From assembly GCA_016937175.1 (NCBI GenBank), contig JAFGWL010000005.1, positions 1 through 53,056 of the forward strand: 53,056 nucleotides of DNA, written 5' to 3'. Positions within the stretch are counted from its first letter, which is position 1, and each line of letters starts with the position of its first letter. The notes beneath the pieces were generated by a model that was given only the letters and a program-made list of their open reading frames with translations, was not told the DNA's origin and ran no database searches. Shown one piece after another: positions 13,439-22,570 of the stretch. This DNA is from Candidatus Mcinerneyibacteriota bacterium. Lineage in GTDB: Bacteria; Macinerneyibacteriota; Macinerneyibacteria; Macinerneyibacteriales; DSCS01. Position numbers and translations under genes: made by a program.

Positions 13439-15834
13439 ATACTTTCCTCCTTCGGCCGTCGGGCACGTTTCAGGCTCAGAGAGTTACTGACAACAGATAC
13501 AGAACTGAAGGCCATGGCACCTCCAGCGATAATGGGCTGCAATAAACCCAAAGCAGCCAGAGGGATTCCCAGGGTATTATAGACAAAGGCCCAGAAAAGG
13601 TTCTGTCTGATCTTTCGCATGGTGAGTCTCGAAAGGTCCAGCGCATGCAGAAGGGTCTCCAGGCGTCCGTTCATCAATACCACATCCCCTGTCTCCATGG
13701 CAACATCTGTCCCGCTCCCCATGGCCAACCCTACATGGGCTGTAGCAAGAGCCGGAGCATCGTTGATCCCGTCTCCCACCATGGCAACGACACGACCCTT
13801 TTGACGCAGTTCCTCGATTTTTTTTGCTTTTTCCCCCGGCATGACCCGTGAAAAGATCCGATCTGACGGGATTCCCAGCTTTTCTCCCACAGCCCGGGCT
13901 GTCTTTTCGTTGTCCCCAGTGATCATATAGCTTTCTATCCCTCGCTCTTTCAGCCTCTTCAGAACACGCCCGGCCTCTTTTTTCAGCTGGTCTGAAAAGG
14001 AGATCAGTCCGACCACATCTCCATCCACAGAAGTAAAGACGACAGAATCGCCCCGGGCTGCTGCCTCTTCCCTGGCTTTGTCGATCTCTTCAGCCAGATA
14101 TGCGACCGGGACATATCCGGCCCGGCCTACACGGACCTCCTTCCCCTGGATCATCACACACACTCCCTGGCCGGGCTCGGCGCTGAACTTTTCTGCCCGG
14201 GGAAGTTCCACTCCTTTTTCTGAAGCGAAATCTACTACGGCCCGGGCAAAGGGATGTTCTGAAAAGGCTTCTGCCGAAGCGCTGTAGGCCAAAAACTTTT
14301 CTTCAGGATAATCTTTAATGCTCACAGCAGATGAGACACGGATAGATCCCGTCGTCAGTGTCCCGGTCTTGTCAAAGACCATGGCATCGATATCTTTAAG
14401 CCGCTCCAGACTCTCCCCGTTTCTCACCAGGACACCCCATTCGGCCCCCTTGCCCATTCCCACCATCAAGGCTGTCGGGGTCGCCAACCCTAAAGCACAG
14501 GGACAGGCGATGACCAGCACAGAGACTGAGGCGATGAGCCCGTGAGAGGTATTCCCCTGAAAAAGGAGCCACCCCAGGAAAGTAAAGAGAGCAATTCCCA
14601 GCACCGCCGGGACAAAATGGGCAGCCACCCGGTCTGCCAGTTTCTGGACAGGGGCTTTCGTTCCCTGTGCTTCTTCGACGATCCGTATGATATGCGCCAG
14701 GACCGTGTCTTTCCCCACACGGTCAGCTTCTACTTTTAAAGACCCGGTCCCGTTTACGGTCCCTCCGGTGACTCTGTCTCCCTGTGCCTTTTCCACCGGG
14801 AGACTTTCCCCGGTCAGCATACTCTCATCCACAGTCGAAGCCCCTTCAAGAATATGGCCGTCGGCAGGAACCCTTTCGCCCGGCCGGACGATGAGATGGT
14901 CTCCGGGTACGATCTCCTCTATCCTTCTTGTCTCCAGGCGTCCGTCTTCTGTTTCCACAAGAGCTGTCTTAGGCGCCATTCCAATAAGCTTTCTGATAGC
15001 CTGAGTCGTTTTACCTTTGGCTCTGTTCTCAAGGTATTTACCCAGAAGAACAAGAGTAATGATCATGGCTGAAGTCTCAAAATAGAGTTCATGGCCATTT
15101 CCATCAACAGAACGGAAAAAACCGTTATATATACTGTACAGGAAAGCCGTTGTCGTCCCCATGGCTATGAGAAGGTCCATCCCCGGGCTCAGGCTTCTCA
15201 CGCTGTGCCAGGCCTTCCTGTAAAACGGAAGACCACCGATGAACTGGACAGGTGCGGCGAAAATCAGCTGGAACCAGGGTATATGGAAAAGCGGAGCGTT
15301 AATCCCCGCGACCATAAAGACCATACCCGCCAGCAAGGGGAGAGTAAGGACCGAAGCCAATATAAGCCTTCCCGCCCCTTCCCCCTTTTTTTGTTTCAAC
15401 TCCTGAACAGGGTTTGACCTGCGCGCCTTATATCCCAGAGATTCGATCTTTTCGATCAGAGAGTCCACATCTCCGTCCTCTGTCTCAACAAAACACTTTT
15501 CTGTTGCAAGATTGACATGGGCCCGTTTTACCCGGGGAAAAGAAGAGAGCCCTTTTTCAATCCTCGCTACACAGGAGGCACAGGTCATCCCCTCGATATC
15601 GATCTCAACTGCCTTATCCTCTTCTGGTTTTTCTGCTGGCTCATACCCCAGAAAACGGATCTTGTCATAGATCTTCTCTGTATCCACTATTTCCGGGTCG
15701 TAGTCTACTATAGCTTTTTCTGTGGCCAGATTCACTCTGACCTCCCTGACCCCCTCCTCTTTTCCCAATGCCCGTTCAATACGGGCAACACAGGAGGCAC
15801 AGGTCATCCCTTTTATCTTAATGTCCTGTTTCAT
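13435..15834 (-). CDS. copA: Copper-exporting P1B-type ATPase
   Basis: 799 aa from the ATG at 15834 (GGGAGA upstream; frames open to 15939 are extensions inside the preceding gene). Two N-terminal HMA domains each carry GMTCASC (first Cys12/Cys15). Eight membrane segments follow the P1B plan, with the membrane metal site CPC at 444-446, phosphorylation Asp488 in DKTGT, TGES in the actuator domain and [10 protein letters not shown] in the hinge. CPC plus two CxxC domains indicates Cu(I)/Ag(I) export. It overlaps the RseC-like gene by 17 nt and copZ by 4 nt. Confidence 0.96.
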
Positions 15835-16231
15835 GATGTCTCCCTTCATCAAGAATCTCCACTTTGATCTTCTTTCTGATCCCTTCATTGAGAAGATGCA
15901 GCGGGAAAAAGGAGCCTGTAAAGAAGACCAGGGCGCCAAGAACCGTCCATCCCTCCCCTGGGAGAAGGAGGCTTGCCAACAGTGCTCCGGCTATGGCTGA
16001 TGCCAGGGGAGCCAGGAGGGCCAGAAAAGAGAGAGCCGGAGTAACAGGAAGGGTCAGCTTGATCCTGTCTCCTGTCTTTATCCGGAAAGCATCAGGAAGC
16101 GTGATCCATTTTCCCCGGGGTTCTGATGGGCACAACCCGCACCCGGAACAGTTTTTACCGTGAGCTTCTCCCTCAGAGACAAGGAAGATCCGTCCCTTTT
16201 CCTTTTCTTTTACCCATCCTTCAAATATCAT
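15818..16231 (-). CDS. RseC/MucC-like (SoxR-reducing system) membrane protein
   Basis: 137 aa. The N-terminal soluble part has the cysteine cluster NCSGCGLC (C-x2-C-x2-C), followed by a small beta barrel-like segment ([18 protein letters not shown]) and two membrane helices (about residues 70-117), which is the RseC/MucC layout. E. coli RseC is linked to sigma-E and SoxR reduction; in many anaerobes it sits with Rnf. Here it lies between a SHOCT protein and copA and overlaps copA by 17 nt. Its cysteines could bind metal or a cluster. A copper-linked redox role is inference. Confidence 0.75.
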
Positions 16232-16241
16232 ACACCCCTCC

Positions 16242-16475
16242 TCACCGTCCGTGCTGCCTGGCCTCGATCATCTCTTTGATCCTCTTATAATCATTTTCTG
16301 TGACCTCTCCCCTGGCCAGCCTCTTTTCCAGTATCTCTGAAGAAGAGATCCTCATGTCGGATTCTTCTTTCCCATGGCTGTGATAAAATAAGAGAGCTCC
16401 GGCCACCAATAACAGAAATAGAAGCAAAAGACCCAGGGAAACATATCCGGTCAGGGGACATGATCCTATAAACAT
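16242..16475 (-). CDS. Small membrane protein with SHOCT domain
   Basis: 77 aa from the ATG at 16475 (AAGGAGG 7 nt upstream; two GTGs precede it). Residues about 10-33 form one hydrophobic helix, then FYHSHGKEE, then a C-terminal SHOCT motif (EILEKRLARGEVTENDYKRI). SHOCT domains are short C-terminal modules of unknown, possibly oligomerising, function. An N-terminal Cys and the two His after the helix could contact metal. It lies 12 nt after csoR and 10 nt before the RseC-like gene, so it belongs to the copper operon. Confidence 0.85.
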   Translation of the reverse strand: MFIGSCPLTGYVSLGLLLLFLLLVAGALLFYHSHGKEESDMRISSSEILEKRLARGEVTENDYKRIKEMIEARQHGR

Positions 16476-16487
16476 CACCACACCTCC

Positions 16488-16790
16488 TTATTTCAGCATT
16501 TTCTTTATGGTCGCCAGAACTTCATCGATCACTTCATCCCTGCCGGCTCTGATCTGTTCGACTACACAGCTCTTAAGATGCGCTTCCAGAAGGATCTTTT
16601 TGACTCCGTTGAGAGCAGCCTCGACAGATGAAAACTGGTTAAGTATCTCATCACAATAGACGTCTTTCTCGATCATCCCCCGTATTCCCCTCACCTGTCC
16701 CTCGATCTTATTGAGCCGGCTGATCATTTTGATTTTCAATTCATTGGAGTGGTAAGCTTTCACCGGCGTACAATAATTCTTATTTGCCAT
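16488..16790 (-). CDS. csoR: CsoR family copper-sensing transcriptional repressor
   Basis: 100 aa, the four-helix DUF156/CsoR fold. The Cu(I) ligands Cys46, His71 and Cys75 have the exact C...H-x-x-x-C layout of CsoR, separating it from FrmR and RcnR paralogues. RLNKIEGQVRGI is the basic DNA-contact helix. When copper binds, the repressor leaves DNA and the cassette is expressed. It is the first gene of its own operon, so autoregulation is expected. The ATG is preceded by GGGGGTAAGGG, which serves both as ribosome-binding region and possible operator. Confidence 0.93.
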   Translation of the reverse strand: MANKNYCTPVKAYHSNELKIKMISRLNKIEGQVRGIRGMIEKDVYCDEILNQFSSVEAALNGVKKILLEAHLKSCVVEQIRAGRDEVIDEVLATIKKMLK

Positions 16791-16806
16791 ACCCTTACCC
16801 CCTATA
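16791..16806 (-). promoter_or_regulatory. Possible CsoR operator (G-tract element) in the csoR leader
   Basis: The minus strand reads ATAGGGGGTAAGGGTAT immediately before and into the start codon of csoR, a G-tract flanked by ATA/TAT. CsoR operators are G/C-tract elements flanked by AT. It overlaps the ribosome-binding region, so the assignment is tentative. Confidence 0.35.
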
Positions 16807-16823
16807 TCTATCTATCTGTTAGT

Positions 16824-16852
16824 ATTTTACTTACATTATTGTGCCCTGTCAA
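16824..16852 (-). promoter_or_regulatory. Promoter of the csoR-copA cassette
   Basis: Minus-strand TTGACA (16847-16852), 17-nt spacer, TAAAAT (16824-16829). It is followed by ACTAACAGATAG, an element shared with the nifS promoter at identical spacing. Confidence 0.8.
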
Positions 16853-16864
16853 GGGGATAAAACA

Positions 16865-16891
16865 AAAAACCCCGCTCAAGGCGGGGTTTTT
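16865..16891 (-). terminator. Intrinsic terminator after nifU
   Basis: A perfect 11-bp stem (16865-16875 with 16881-16891, loop TCAAG) of AAAAACCCCGC/GCGGGGTTTTT. On the minus strand the stem ends in TTTTTTGTTTT. It lies 19 nt after the nifU stop and insulates the downstream csoR promoter; the flanking A/T tracts could make it bidirectional. Confidence 0.9.
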
Positions 16892-16909
16892 AGGCGTATT
16901 GAGTTTTTG

Positions 16910-17875
16910 TCAGATCATCCGGGCTGTGACCCGAGGTCCTGCTGTTTCCTTGAGAACCTTGTCGATCATAGAGAGTGTCCCTGTCCCTGCAGCAGCACAG
17001 GTGGCACATCCTCCCAGATAACGGATGAAAATAATGGTCTCTTCTCCCTCTTTTTTGATATCCATGACCTCGACATCGCCCCCATCTCGGTGAAGAATAG
17101 GTTTGATCTTTTCAGCAAAGATCTCTTCAATGGCCTTATACTGGGCTATGGGGCTCATCTCTTCAAATGTCTCAAGGGATCCAATTGACTTGATCTTTTC
17201 ACGATCCATTTCAGCCCGTACTTCAGCCAAAATATCTTCAAGGTAATACTTTCTTTTTTCATGCCCCCCCGGGCGGATACAGGATCCGCAAAAGGCCCCG
17301 GCTTTTGTATAGCGTGTGATCTCTTCCACACTTTTCAAATCGTTGATTCGAATGACATCCTTGACCGTCTTCAGAGAGACACGGGCACACTCACATACGA
17401 TCTCTTCTTCTTCCGGATCTTCCATCTCCACCCCTTTATAGAGGGAAGCCGCTTTTTTGATGACATCATAGGCCATGACACTGCAGTGCATCTTCTGTGG
17501 GGGGATGGCCGCCTGGTCTTCCGTATCTCGCAGGGCTTTTTCCACGTCCAGATTGGTGATCTTCAAGGCTTCGTCGACGGTCTTTCCCATGCAGAGTTCC
17601 GCCATCACATCGCTTGATGCGATAGCAGTGCCACACCCGAAGGTCTTAAACCTTGCCTTCAGGATTGTATCACTTTTTGTATCCACAAGCCAAAAAAGGC
17701 GTACGGCATCTCCGCAGGATTCCGCTCCCCAGTCTGCAACAATAAGTCTTCTATTTTCTGCATCAGCTTCTTCGGGAGAGATCTCCCCGAAATAAGTGGG
17801 GTTATTCATCCTCTCGATGACATTATTTGAATAGGTCTCCCAAAGTTTACCGCCGATCAGGTCTTTCTTCGCCAT
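16910..17875 (-). CDS. nifU: NifU-type iron-sulfur cluster assembly scaffold, three-domain form
   Basis: 321 aa, the full NifU length. Domain 1 (about 1-130) is IscU-like with the three scaffold cysteines (AESCGDA, FGCGTA, KMHCSV). Domain 2 (about 155-215) is BFD/[2Fe-2S]-ferredoxin-like with VCECARV and FCGSCIRPGG. Domain 3 (about 240-321) is the NifU C-terminal scaffold with HRDGGDVEV and GGCATCAAA (CxxC). It assembles Fe-S clusters from sulfur delivered by NifS, encoded 11 nt upstream. No nitrogenase genes are in the window, so a general NIF-type assembly role is likely. Confidence 0.95.
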   Translation of the reverse strand: MAKKDLIGGKLWETYSNNVIERMNNPTYFGEISPEEADAENRRLIVADWGAESCGDAVRLFWLVDTKSDTILKARFKTFGCGTAIASSDVMAELCMGKTVDEALKITNLDVEKALRDTEDQAAIPPQKMHCSVMAYDVIKKAASLYKGVEMEDPEEEEIVCECARVSLKTVKDVIRINDLKSVEEITRYTKAGAFCGSCIRPGGHEKRKYYLEDILAEVRAEMDREKIKSIGSLETFEEMSPIAQYKAIEEIFAEKIKPILHRDGGDVEVMDIKKEGEETIIFIRYLGGCATCAAAGTGTLSMIDKVLKETAGPRVTARMI

Positions 17876-17886
17876 AAGGCCTCCTT

Positions 17887-19053
17887 TTAATAGTCTATGG
17901 ATATCTTCCTCAGCCTCTCAACGGCTTTTCCCAGGACTTCGATGACATAGCTGATCTCCTCGTCCCGCGTGAAGCGGGAAAGGCTAAAGCGCAGGGCCGT
18001 ATGAGAGAGAGAGGGGTCTATGTTCATGGCCACGAGAGTGTGGTCAGTCTCCAGGGATTCTGAAGCACATGCGCTCCCCGTTGATACGGCTACTCCGAAT
18101 TTATTCAGTTCCCATGCCAGAGCCTCCCCTTCCACCCCCTTGAAAGAAGCCAGTATCGTATTGGGTGTCCTTAATTCTCTTTTCCCCAGAATAGAGACAT
18201 CCGGCAGGCGTGCCATGGCATCTTCAAGCCGGTCTCTTAGAGCTCTGACCTGAGTCAGCTCCCTGTCCAGCTGTGAGACAGCAAGATCCATGGCCAGTCC
18301 CATTCCGATGAAACCGGGGACATTGACCGTCCCTGCCCGGAGATTTCCCATTTGCTCACCTCCATGCAGCAGCGGCCCGATGGGCATCCCCTTACGGACA
18401 TAAAGCCCCCCGATCCCTTTGGGACCATGAAATTTGTGAGCGCTGAAGGTCAGATAATCGACTGGCGATTCCTGAAGATCCACCGGGATCTTTCCGATAG
18501 CCTGGACAGCATCTGTATGAAAGGGGACACCGACACTCCGGCAATAACCAGCCATCTCTTTTACCGGGAAGATGAGCCCGGTCTCGTTATTAGCCCACAT
18601 CACAGAGACAAGAGCCGTCTCCTCCGGATTAAGATATTCTTTGAGGATATCCAGAGTCACGATCCCGTCGACATTTACAGGGAGAAAGATAACACGAGCT
18701 CCCATCTTTTCCAGGTATTTAGCTGTATTAAAGACACTGGGATGCTCGACAGACGACACGATGACGCTCTTCTTATCCCCCTTCTTCAGTATCTGGTCAA
18801 AGAGATAATATTTTAATACGGTGTTATTCCCTTCCGTCGCGCATCCGTTGATGATGATATTATCCTCATCGGAAGCCCCTAATCCCTTATAGAGCTGATC
18901 CAGGGCTTTTTCCATGGGCTGGCGCACCTCCATCCCGTAGGAGTGAAGGGAATTGGGGTTCCCGTACTTTTCTGTCTCATACTCCTTCATCAATGCTGAT
19001 ACCTGAGGGTCGACCATGGTGGTCGCATTGTTGTCAAGATAGACACGTTCCAT
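17887..19053 (-). CDS. nifS: NifS-type cysteine desulfurase
   Basis: 388 aa, PLP-dependent class V aminotransferase fold. It removes sulfur from cysteine and passes it to NifU. The N-terminus VYLDNNATTMVDP is typical. The PLP lysine is in SAHKFHGPKG, the catalytic cysteine in STGSACASE on a short loop, as in group I IscS/NifS enzymes. GAGGGAGG precedes the ATG. It is the first gene of nifS-nifU. Confidence 0.95.
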   Translation of the reverse strand: MERVYLDNNATTMVDPQVSALMKEYETEKYGNPNSLHSYGMEVRQPMEKALDQLYKGLGASDEDNIIINGCATEGNNTVLKYYLFDQILKKGDKKSVIVSSVEHPSVFNTAKYLEKMGARVIFLPVNVDGIVTLDILKEYLNPEETALVSVMWANNETGLIFPVKEMAGYCRSVGVPFHTDAVQAIGKIPVDLQESPVDYLTFSAHKFHGPKGIGGLYVRKGMPIGPLLHGGEQMGNLRAGTVNVPGFIGMGLAMDLAVSQLDRELTQVRALRDRLEDAMARLPDVSILGKRELRTPNTILASFKGVEGEALAWELNKFGVAVSTGSACASESLETDHTLVAMNIDPSLSHTALRFSLSRFTRDEEISYVIEVLGKAVERLRKISIDY

Positions 19054-20059: not shown

Positions 20060-21019
20060 ATGTTCGGTTATATACGATATCTTCCCTGTCGGGAGCGACA
20101 GGGAGAAGAAGAGGAGTACAAAGGATACTATTGCGGCCTCTGCAAATCCCTCCGCTCGTCCTACGGCCAGGCGGCGGGGCTTTTTCTTTCATACGACACG
20201 ACATTCCTGGCCATCCTTCTCGACGCACTCTCCCCGACTCCACGTAAAGTGACAAAAGAGACTTGTTTTCTGCACCCCTTTCGCAGACGCCCGGTGATCC
20301 GCTCCCGTGCCGTGGACTACGCTGCAGACATCACTCTTCTTCTTTCCTACCGCAAGATCGAAGACAACAAGCGGGACGCCTCTCTTCTCTGGGCACTTCC
20401 TCTGCTGGGCCTGGCCCCTATGAGAAAAAGGGCTCTCACCCGTTTATCTCCCCGGGGGGCTTCTGCAGAACACGCCTTTTCCACACTCTTCGCCCTGGAA
20501 GATTCTTCCGGCTTTTCCCCTGAACAGAGAGCTTCAGCCTTCGGTACGATACTTGGAGAGATCACGGCATCTTATCCCGGCCTTGAAGCCTGCCCTCCTT
20601 CCTCTTTATTCGAGGCTGGATTTCATCTGGGCCGATGGATCTACTACATTGATGCTCTTGATGATTTTGAAAAAGATCAGAAAAAAAACAATTACAATCC
20701 TATCCCCATCCTTTTCCCTGACACGACCCGTGAAAGGGTCAAAAGCTTTATGGCCGTCGCCCTGCAAAGTGAGCTCTTCGCTCTGGCCGGTTCCCTGAAA
20801 CAGCTTTCTTTGGACAGAAACAAGGCATTGATCGACAGCCTTGTCTACAAAGGACTGGATACCATGACATTAAGGATACTTGAAAAATTTCATCCTTCGG
20901 AGGTAGATAATGAAAAACCCTTACGCTGTACTGGGCATTTCTCCCGATGCGACCATGGACCAGGTCCGGAAAGCCTACCGGGACCTGGCCAGAAAATATC
21001 ACCCGGACAAACACGCTGA
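20060..21019 (+). CDS. DUF5685-type protein, possible isoprenoid-synthase-like fold
   Basis: 319 aa from the ATG at 20060 (AAAGGA upstream). The N-terminus MFGYIR, Y-Y-C-G-L-C (CGLC at 25-28) and L-S-Y-D-T-T-F-L are hallmarks of DUF5685, known from clostridia. Two acidic motifs stand out: D102-N-K-R-D106 and D198-A-L-D-D202-F-E-K-D206 followed by Y-N-P. Paired DxxxD motifs resemble squalene/phytoene synthases, but this is inference. Mostly helical, no signal peptide. The last 37 residues are encoded in the overlap with dnaJ (110 nt) and are Gly/Pro/Arg-rich, unlike the rest. Function is unknown. Confidence 0.75.
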
Positions 21020-21500
21020 CAACCCCCTTTCGGGGTTAGCAGAAGAAAAGTTTAAAGAGATCAATGAGGCTTATGAAGCTATCCTGAAAGAGCGTGAAGG
21101 GGGTAGCAGCCGGGCTTCGCACTCTTCAGAGTCCTCATACGGCCTTCTCTCCAGAGCCCGCTCTCTCATCAACAACGGGCACTTCATGGAAGCTGAACGA
21201 CTGCTGGATTCTCTCTCAGCCAGGCCGGCTGAATGGTACTTTCTGAAAGGAATGATCTTTTTGAGAAAGGGATGGCGTATGCAGGCTGTCCAATACTTCC
21301 AGGCTGCCATGGAAGCAGACCCGGCCAACCCTGAATACCGTCAAGCTTTTGAACAAGTCGCAGGTCAGTCACGGATGTATCGCGATATGTCAGCAAATTA
21401 CGGAAGAACAACTGTCTCACCCTGCGACTGCTGTGCAGGGCTTATCTGCGCTGATTGCTGCTGCGAATGCTGCGGCGGCGATTTTCTGGCCTGCTGTTGA
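20910..21500 (+). CDS. DnaJ-domain protein with TPR-like middle and cysteine-rich C-terminal tail
   Basis: 196 aa. Residues 1-65 are a J domain with the HPD motif (31-33), which stimulates DnaK ATPase. Residues about 80-160 form a TPR-like helical region ([36 protein letters not shown]). The last 25 residues hold 11 cysteines in [13 protein letters not shown] and ACC clusters, likely for metal binding or membrane lipid attachment. GGAGG precedes the ATG. It lacks the zinc-finger and client domains of true DnaJ, so it is a specialised co-chaperone. The cysteine tail recurs in clostridial relatives beside DUF5685. Confidence 0.85.
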
Positions 21501-21505
21501 GGACG

Positions 21506-22030
21506 ATGATGGACAAGAACCTTCATACGCGTTTGACGGCATTCACCGCCCTGGGGGCGGCTTTGGGGACACTTATCCTCTATATGGCGGCGGTCTTTCC
21601 TTCGGGACGCCTGGTTTTGATCTTTACAGCCTCTCTTCCCGCAGCTTTTCTGAGCCGTGAAACGACTCCAAAACGCGGGTGGGGACTCTTTTTTCTAACT
21701 TTTTCACTTTCTCTTATCCTTTTGCCTGCCAAACTGCCGGTGCTTCTGTTCGGTTGCTATTTCGGTTATTTCCCTCTTTTGAAAACTGCGCTTTCCGCGA
21801 AATGGAAAGGATTCTGGGGTGCTTTCCTTCTACGTCTCATTATCTTCAATGGAGCTATGGGGTTTCTTTTTTTCCTCACCAAAGAGTGGGCTTTAGGGGA
21901 TATCCCTTCAGGGAAAGCCCTTTATGCCCTGATCCCTGCCCTCCAAATCGTCTTCATCGCACTGGAAATCGCTCTTCCCATGGCCATGGCCCTTTATGAA
22001 GACCATATCCGAAAACATCTTCCCCTATAG
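21506..22030 (+). CDS. Integral membrane protein of the DUF5685/DnaJ cluster
   Basis: 174 aa from ATG 21506 (a second ATG follows at 21509); only 5 nt separate it from the dnaJ stop. Four to five hydrophobic helices span most of the length, with short polar ends (MMDKNLHTRL, YEDHIRKHLPL). No known family motif is recognisable. Its position as third gene of the DUF5685 module suggests it works with the J protein, perhaps as the membrane anchor. Its stop overlaps the convergent PAS gene by 6 nt. Confidence 0.7.
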   Translation: MMDKNLHTRLTAFTALGAALGTLILYMAAVFPSGRLVLIFTASLPAAFLSRETTPKRGWGLFFLTFSLSLILLPAKLPVLLFGCYFGYFPLLKTALSAKWKGFWGAFLLRLIIFNGAMGFLFFLTKEWALGDIPSGKALYALIPALQIVFIALEIALPMAMALYEDHIRKHLPL

Positions 22031-22570
22031 GTTCTTGAGGAGACTCTCACGGCATTCTTCACATATCCCGTGTGTCACATAGGGTAGTTTCCCCTTCTCA
22101 AAGTACCGTATCCGCTGCAGTGCCTCCTCCAGGGTCAGCCATTCATCCTGTTCATGATGATAGATCTTTTTACACCAGCTGCACATACGGATGACAGGCC
22201 CTTCATCAAGACGGGCACAAATATGGGGAGCAACGGCTTCCCTTTTCTGCTCTCTCTTCAATATACTGGTAAAGGTGATCCCTCCTGATTCGCCCTTTTT
22301 GACCACCATCTCCATATCTCTCACCCTGTTCGGAGAATCGCATCGAAAAGGGATTTTGTACTCCGTTTTGTCTCCGCTTCTTAATTTGGCCACTATCGCC
22401 TGATAGAGATGCCGTGTTGTTTCGTCCCGGATAAAATCCCAAAGGCTGACCCCGATGACGGAGGAAACCTGGAAATCAGGATCCCAGTTTTCACGGGCGA
22501 AGTCGATCCATTGTTCATCCACGTGGATAAGTCTGTCTTGAGAATCGATCCGATAGGAATAACTGATCAT
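22025..22570 (-). CDS. PAS-like sensor protein with C-terminal cysteine-pair module
   Basis: 181 aa. The N-terminal 110 residues look like a PAS fold (SQDRLIHVDEQWIDFA, VIGVSLWDFI, two-strand hairpin KTEYKIPFRCDS). The C-terminal part has MCSWCKKI and GICEEC, a CxxC...CxxC pair with a tryptophan between them (EWLTLEEAL), as found at the end of some PAS sensor proteins and likely to bind zinc. There is no kinase or effector domain. AGGAGG precedes the ATG, and TATAAT lies in the 5' gap. Signal and partner are unknown. Confidence 0.7.
   Translation of the reverse strand: MISYSYRIDSQDRLIHVDEQWIDFARENWDPDFQVSSVIGVSLWDFIRDETTRHLYQAIVAKLRSGDKTEYKIPFRCDSPNRVRDMEMVVKKGESGGITFTSILKREQKREAVAPHICARLDEGPVIRMCSWCKKIYHHEQDEWLTLEEALQRIRYFEKGKLPYVTHGICEECRESLLKNL

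Follow-up and report, generated by a model that had tools for sequence, protein, structure and literature searches.

The question raised by this locus is what a DUF5685 protein might do beside a cysteine-tailed J-domain protein and a membrane protein. The three genes lie on the plus strand of a 53,056-nt stretch of DNA from a Candidatus Mcinerneyibacteriota bacterium (contig JAFGWL010000005.1), which was analysed at full length and is hereafter called the window. The first gene (20060..21019) encodes a 319-aa protein that matched the Pfam family DUF5685 (PF18937) over residues 1-268, with an E-value of 9e-62 and a score of 209 bits against a gathering cut-off of 26.7, and that was further characterized with AlphaFold2 and Foldseek. 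The second (20910..21500) encodes a 196-aa J-domain/TPR/Cys-tail protein, identified by its Pfam DnaJ match and by family alignment, and the third (21506..22030) a 174-aa polytopic membrane protein with 12 strong homologues, all in genomes that carry DUF5685. An earlier interpretation made from the letters alone (the sequence-only reading) had described a DUF5685 protein, a J protein with 11 cysteines in its last 25 residues and an integral membrane protein, encoded by genes with tight or overlapping junctions, and all of this was confirmed. Its proposal of a single promoter fared less well, as a simple sigma-70 promoter scan of the window gave no plus-strand site 5' of the DUF5685 gene.

The open reading frames of the first two genes share a 110-bp, out-of-frame overlap (20910..21019, plus strand), and a 5-bp gap separates the second gene from the third. 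The overlap encodes DUF5685 residues 287-319, which AlphaFold2 predicts to be disordered (pLDDT < 50). The second genome of the genus (G001, locus L003) has the identical three genes in identical order with an overlap of 116 bp (L003 1348-1463), and the DUF5685 frames of both genus members stop at nearly one place. Since the extension is predicted to be disordered and overlaps in related loci outside the genus are usually only a few bases, the 3' extension of DUF5685 across the J gene probably arose incidentally, through the loss of a stop codon. Upstream of the three genes, on the minus strand (15821-19053), are RseC-like, NifU-like (BFD domain) and NifS-like genes and a heavy-metal ATPase gene; RseC and class V aminotransferase genes also occur in the vicinity of DUF5685 in Pusillibacter. 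On the other side, a minus-strand gene (22025-22570) converging on the module encodes a 181-aa protein, PAS-like by eye and with C-terminal Cys pairs, for which no Pfam match was found.

DUF5685 is present in Clostridia (including gut Lachnospiraceae), Actinobacteria, Thermotoga, and the small phylum of the window. In that phylum it was found in two of the three genomes examined, both from one genus, and Thermotoga maritima was its sole carrier among 14 control genomes. We surveyed the gene neighborhoods of 111 related loci, which are mostly from Lachnospiraceae and not independent (one scan seeded there gave 80 of the loci fetched). A J protein with the HPD motif was encoded directly 3' of DUF5685 in 100 loci, a downstream product with at least five cysteines in its last 45 residues in 94, and both features adjacent to DUF5685 in 90. 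By comparison, a Cys-rich end occurs in 5.8% of the remaining ORFs of 120 aa or longer from these loci, and most of those listed are a recurring upstream zinc-ribbon membrane protein. A fairer test was provided by 250 genomes drawn evenly from the phylum to which genome G003 belongs, 26 of which carry DUF5685. All 16 matches to a TPR + Cys-tail profile below 1e-32 fell within those 26 genomes (the next best match, at 1.6e-7, ends short of the tail), as did all 12 matches to a membrane-protein profile below 1e-9, three of them unlinked to DUF5685. Hypergeometric probabilities of this co-occurrence were 8e-19 for the J/Cys-tail family and 1e-13 for the membrane family, values that are optimistic given the relatedness of the genomes; counting only about seven independent clades, the latter becomes 6e-8, which relatedness still makes optimistic. 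Among strong matches in the 250 genomes, separation of both families from DUF5685-free genomes was complete. The three families thus co-occur almost exclusively, and DUF5685, the J-TPR-Cys-tail protein and the membrane protein form a real conserved bacterial module, as the sequence-only reading had supposed.

Within this module, DUF5685 itself resisted assignment by sequence comparison. It was the sole Pfam match of the window protein at E-values up to 1, with neither PF00348 (trans-isoprenyl diphosphate synthases) nor PF00494 (squalene/phytoene synthases) matched, and a sequence search of the PDB with two DUF5685 profiles returned only chance matches, i.e., a tape measure protein (0.013), a TetR regulator (0.1) and a cyclodipeptide synthase (0.15). 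A viral fold library gave no match to DUF5685 below an E-value of 0.01, and scans of viral contigs with the window and Pusillibacter proteins as queries found no relative. Structure prediction was more informative. An AlphaFold2 model of the window protein (pLDDT 83, pTM 0.81) had a folded core of residues 1-286, and the homologue from Kineothrix alysoides was modelled with a pLDDT of 94.6 and a pTM of 0.91. When both models were compared to the PDB with Foldseek, the best 50 matches of each were all members of the isoprenoid-synthase superfamily (50/50 for each; best E-values of 3.3e-3 and 1.6e-4, respectively), although the two queries share one alignment, so that the fold is replicated and the alignment is not independently replicated. 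The matches comprised geranyl-, farnesyl-, heptaprenyl-, octaprenyl- and solanesyl-diphosphate synthases, MoeN5, CrtE, terpene synthases and one UbiA, with Foldseek probabilities of 0.9-1.00, TM-scores of only about 0.55 and sequence identities of 9-15%. The UbiA structure, at rank 18, suggested a membrane prenyltransferase, a candidate that we rejected since no hydrophobic membrane helices were seen by eye in DUF5685. These results bear out the isoprenoid-synthase fold that the sequence-only reading had suggested from paired DxxxD sites. As modelled, DUF5685 has the predicted alpha-bundle fold of class I isoprenoid synthases and is an undescribed branch of that superfamily.

Unconstrained profile alignment with hhalign pointed in the same direction. 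The alignment to PF00348 scored 33.9 (P = 1.4e-3), against 11-20 for eight column shuffles and 14.4 for the reversed profile, and it extended over helices D to J and kept the two motifs in register: the first motif of DUF5685 fell on DDxxD, and G191..Y195..D198..D202 on G..FQ..DD..D. Alignment to the SQS_PSY profile of PF00494, the higher-scoring of the two families tested, gave 38.3 (P = 2.6e-4; shuffles 11-20), placing D202, D206, Y212 and P214 on R-D-x-x-E-D.....Y-x-P. As a yardstick, PF00348 aligned to SQS_PSY in an identical set-up scored 53.4. The signals against both families are therefore best described as weak but specific. That the likeness is a generic match between helical bundles, with the DxxxD sites serving some other function such as another Mg2+-dependent reaction, would be in keeping with the modest TM-scores and identities above and with hhalign probabilities of 18% and 42% for the two alignments. 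However, all 100 of the listed PDB matches came from one superfamily, unconstrained alignment to two separate families of this superfamily recovered the motif register, and independent genomic links to polyprenyl synthases exist (see below), and so we consider this explanation highly improbable.

Residue conservation was examined in an alignment of 64 DUF5685 sequences from Clostridia, Erysipelotrichaceae, Actinobacteria, and the window's phylum. Nine positions are invariant (64/64: C25, C28, C69, D102, G191, D198, D202, D206 and N213), and D106, E147 and Y45 (63/64 each) and K/R192 (60/64) are nearly so. The first Asp motif, D102-x3-D106 (20363..20377, plus strand), is located at the end of the helix formed by residues 83-107, in the FARM position, as judged from conservation and hhalign. 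The second, at the end of helix 180-201 in the SARM/NSE position, is a triad, D198-x3-D202-x3-D206 (20651..20677, plus strand), of which D206 is a residue beyond those named in the earlier reading; it is followed by Y212-N213-P214 (20693..20701, plus strand), which aligns with the Y-x-P of phytoene synthases. The remaining invariant residues include a cysteine pair, C25-G-L-C28, in the first long helix (20132..20143, plus strand), and C69 (20264..20266, plus strand), which is situated in a beta-hairpin predicted by AlphaFold2 between helices C and D (strands 63-69 and 72-81); three positions past C69, H72 is the commonest residue (48/64). All motifs of the sequence-only reading were present at the residue numbers it gave, and its four aspartates proved to be conserved. 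In the models, the Asp motifs correspond in position to the sites at which Mg2+ and prenyl diphosphate are held by class I enzymes, and they are predicted to bind metal. Because these residues are so strictly conserved, we argue that the site is used, and the suggestion that DUF5685 might be the relic of an isoprenoid synthase is disfavored; the protein is probably enzymatically active.

What kind of isoprenoid-synthase relative DUF5685 represents is less clear-cut. Like PF00348 enzymes, it has the predicted fold, the helix order, a DDxxD first motif and a G-x3-[Q/Y]-x2-D-x3-D second motif; unlike them, it possesses the beta-hairpin, three invariant cysteines, Y-N-P past the second motif and a near-constant chaperone neighbor, in addition to its lack of a Pfam match and its low identity to the structural matches. 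With PF00494 enzymes it shares two DxxxD-type motifs and a triad of 4+4 spacing that is followed by Y-x-P, but the triad begins with Asp rather than Asn. DUF5685 could accordingly be read as a small-molecule isoprenoid synthase (head-to-head and squalene/phytoene-like, a chain elongase or a cyclase), in which case the J/Cys-tail protein would only fold or target it and the membrane protein would handle a lipid product. Several observations fit this reading. The series G191..Y195..D198..D202..D206..Y212..P214 agrees better with the SQS_PSY pattern G..Q..N...RD..ED....Y.P than with PF00348; an extended alignment puts motif 1, K-x-x-D-D-x-x-D-E, on the C-R-x-x-D-D-x-x-D-E of phytoene synthases; and a search for SQS_PSY genes in 25 genomes (module-bearing or related) yielded none, so that a different enzyme could take that role. 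On the other hand, no SQS/PSY structure was among the best 50 fold matches of either model, no carotenoid or hopanoid genes were recognized near DUF5685, and a strict coupling to a Cys-string J protein, with tails at times fused to the enzyme, would be unexpected for a soluble terpene synthase. We therefore regard a small-molecule product as a minority prospect. The narrower proposal of a head-to-head synthase, made in the sequence-only reading, has a hint from sequence in its favor: the SQS/PSY profile is matched slightly better than PF00348 and the second motif, D-x3-D-x3-D...Y-N-P, does align with that of SQS_PSY, while its first residue is D, not N, and the structural matches are to trans-prenyltransferases. 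Such an activity is possible.

A second line of evidence came from polyprenyl-synthase genes in the same genomes. Of 25 genomes searched, 24 have canonical polyprenyl synthases. In four genomes that carry a divergent DUF5685 (G060, G157, G164, and G232), the distance from this gene to a PF00348 paralog (paralogs, by locus: L152 11117-12064, L153 7498-8643, L154 5611-6642, and L155 3782-4813) is 0.8 to about 6 kb, and the occurrence of a PF00348 gene within 7 kb in four genomes compares with 0.21 expected under uniform placement (P = 5e-5). A profile of the paralogs exceeded 400 bits in exactly these 4 of 250 genomes, the next score being 160; since three of the four paralogs built the profile, what counts as a test is their absence from every DUF5685-free genome. 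HDDxxD is retained in the cluster paralogs, whose second motif is ND[L/I]NN, as compared to DDxxD in 28/28 canonical enzymes read. In their N-terminal region, GGM or SGR stands in place of GGK, and the L154 copy is broken by a stop. ComQ, which prenylates a Trp of a peptide encoded adjacent to it, needs NDxxx at its second motif (PMC5331326), and the ND[L/I]NN paralogs are, from their motifs, candidate ComQ-like transferases. Their neighborhoods contain Hsp70 genes (L153, L155), short proteins with Cys-containing tails (L153, L154, L155), and DUF2232-like membrane proteins. They also include proteins with a degenerate, HPD-less J domain at the C terminus (profile match P = 1.2e-5), encoded between Hsp70 and the paralog (L153 5241-5948; L155 2757-3647); the counterpart in L154 (4971-5549) is without that end. 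In these clusters, the same types of parts recur in quite a different arrangement. In Pusillibacter, ispD and ispF are located 4-5 kb upstream of DUF5685.

DUF5685 resembles the trans-IDS-like protein prenyltransferases ComQ and PalQ in its superfamily fold, in its conserved first Asp motif and in having a candidate protein substrate encoded next door. It differs in that the second motif is kept as D-D-D (D198-A-x-x-D202), with no ComQ-type N-D (or G-D) pseudo-SARM, in that its neighbors are chaperone and membrane proteins rather than a pheromone receptor, and in that the candidate substrate has Cys instead of Trp. The target Trp of ComQ-type enzymes is absent from the Cys tail of the window's J protein, and WC is present in some Lachnospiraceae tails.

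The J protein carries its J domain at residues 3-59 (Pfam DnaJ, E = 3.6e-20), followed by sub-threshold TPR matches and by a C-terminal string of 25 residues with 11 cysteines (21423..21497, plus strand). Having both HPD and a Cys string, it shows the organization of DNAJC5-like cysteine-string proteins. The eukaryotic cysteine-string protein DNAJC5 and the farnesylated J proteins Ydj1/DNAJA have, in addition to a J domain, either a Cys string or a site for a lipid anchor at the C terminus, and the bacterial protein joins a J domain to a Cys string. It differs from them in being bacterial, in its TPR-like middle and in having the string at the extreme C terminus, with no CaaX box seen. Our search of the open literature, with the terms used, found no report of a bacterial Cys-string J protein. 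The tails of the Lachnospiraceae J proteins (WCLSMLFLNMLCNCCCCRPF and the like) are hydrophobic and variable in Cys spacing, and they resemble lipidation strings that seek the membrane rather than metal knuckles; the window's tail is more compact. In Nocardia, Nonomuraea and G157, a Cys-rich tail is fused onto DUF5685 itself. It is plausible that the J protein is a dedicated chaperone and the membrane protein an anchor, as the sequence-only reading had it, and the Cys tail may be a substrate instead.

The cysteines also lend themselves to a different explanation, in which DUF5685 is a non-catalytic sensor of prenyl diphosphates or a scaffold, its three cysteines and the Cys tail bind a metal or cluster, and the module has its function at the membrane, in the homeostasis of metals, redox state or Fe-S. 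The invariance of the three cysteines and the tails fused to DUF5685 in some taxa would suit such a role, as would the nearby NifS, NifU, RseC and heavy-metal ATPase genes of the window and the RseC and class V aminotransferase genes of Pusillibacter. However, the NifS/NifU/RseC genes of the window are on the opposite strand, the hydrophobic Lachnospiraceae tails with their variable spacing do not resemble metal knuckles, and the aspartates of both motifs, each present in 63 or all of the 64 sequences, would be needless in a binding-dead relic. We judge this explanation improbable.

For the third protein of the window, Pfam gave no match. Its family is weakly DUF2232-like, in that two members reach DUF2232 (PF09991), with a best E-value of 6.7e-4, and membrane genes of distant DUF5685 clusters also match DUF2232, weakly or above cut-off; the window protein differs in having no match of its own and in being shorter. 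A role as an ECF S-component was considered and rejected, Pfam giving no support. The membrane genes of L112 and L114 do not match the window family, and therefore, in some taxa, unrelated proteins take the third place of the module. In three closely related genomes (G159, G186, and G211), the membrane-family gene is unlinked to DUF5685 and overlaps a TagO/WecA-like PF00953 gene (L179 1501-2986, L180 482-1968, and L181 1501-2986), each copy beside a cheR-like gene. The TagO/WecA-like PF00953 glycosyltransferase family acts on polyprenyl phosphate. In Lachnospiraceae and relatives, the module also has a small membrane protein with a zinc-ribbon end (CPxCKQxIRVPKGKGKICITCPKCxTEF), encoded 5' of DUF5685 (e.g., L046 4578-4979, L022 4465-4881, and L008 7577-7987) or, in L093 and L120, downstream of the J gene; a Pfam search with this protein returned nothing above cut-off.

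Taken together, we consider it reasonably likely that DUF5685 is an isoprenoid-diphosphate enzyme working within a chaperone module. Judging from the enzymology of the superfamily, it would bind an allylic prenyl diphosphate via Mg2+ and ionize it to the allylic cation, the J protein and Hsp70 would hold or deliver an acceptor, and the membrane protein would site the reaction at the bilayer. The likeliest acceptor, put forward tentatively, would be the Cys string, S-prenylation of which would yield a lipid-anchored J protein, because thiols adjoin, or are fused to, a protein that would act on prenyl diphosphates; the ComQ-like ND motif of the linked paralog points to protein prenylation likewise. 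DUF5685 modules could constitute a bacterial cysteine-prenylation system that S-prenylates the Cys string of a J protein or Hsp70 partner dedicated to it and so anchors the chaperone to the membrane, a reading that we offer as a possibility with considerable doubt; equally doubtful is its extension that DUF5685 is sometimes joined in this by the N-D-type polyprenyl-synthase paralog. Against an isoprenoid-diphosphate enzyme of this kind are the low TM-scores, the want of a PF00348, PF00494 or meaningful PDB sequence match and the three invariant cysteines, which are unusual among isoprenoid synthases. Motif 2 of DUF5685, moreover, is D-D-D, and the ND change occurs only in the paralog, which is missing from most module genomes. 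As to the acceptor, the characterized trans-IDS-like protein prenyltransferases all modify Trp and none Cys (PMC13290415), and the tails fused to DUF5685 might just as well serve as metal sites or anchors.

In the open literature (most subscription journals and preprints were outside the search), DUF5685 has one passing mention, and we found no report of its fold assignment or of the module. Because the window proteins gave no Pfam match to PF00348 or PF00494 and showed neither the ComQ-type pseudo-SARM nor its target Trp, we do not place DUF5685 in any of these groups; we regard it as a branch newly added to a known superfamily and belonging to a module not described before. DUF5685, until now a Pfam family without a known function, can thereby be assigned to a superfamily, with a candidate active site and several partners, and becomes directly testable as a new isoprenoid enzyme. 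The module suggests an unrecognized enzyme system whose task at the membrane may be the attachment or synthesis of isoprenoid lipids. If the Cys string is the acceptor, enzymatic cysteine prenylation would be native to bacteria, and the module would represent a convergent bacterial counterpart of the lipid-anchored cysteine-string and farnesylated J proteins.
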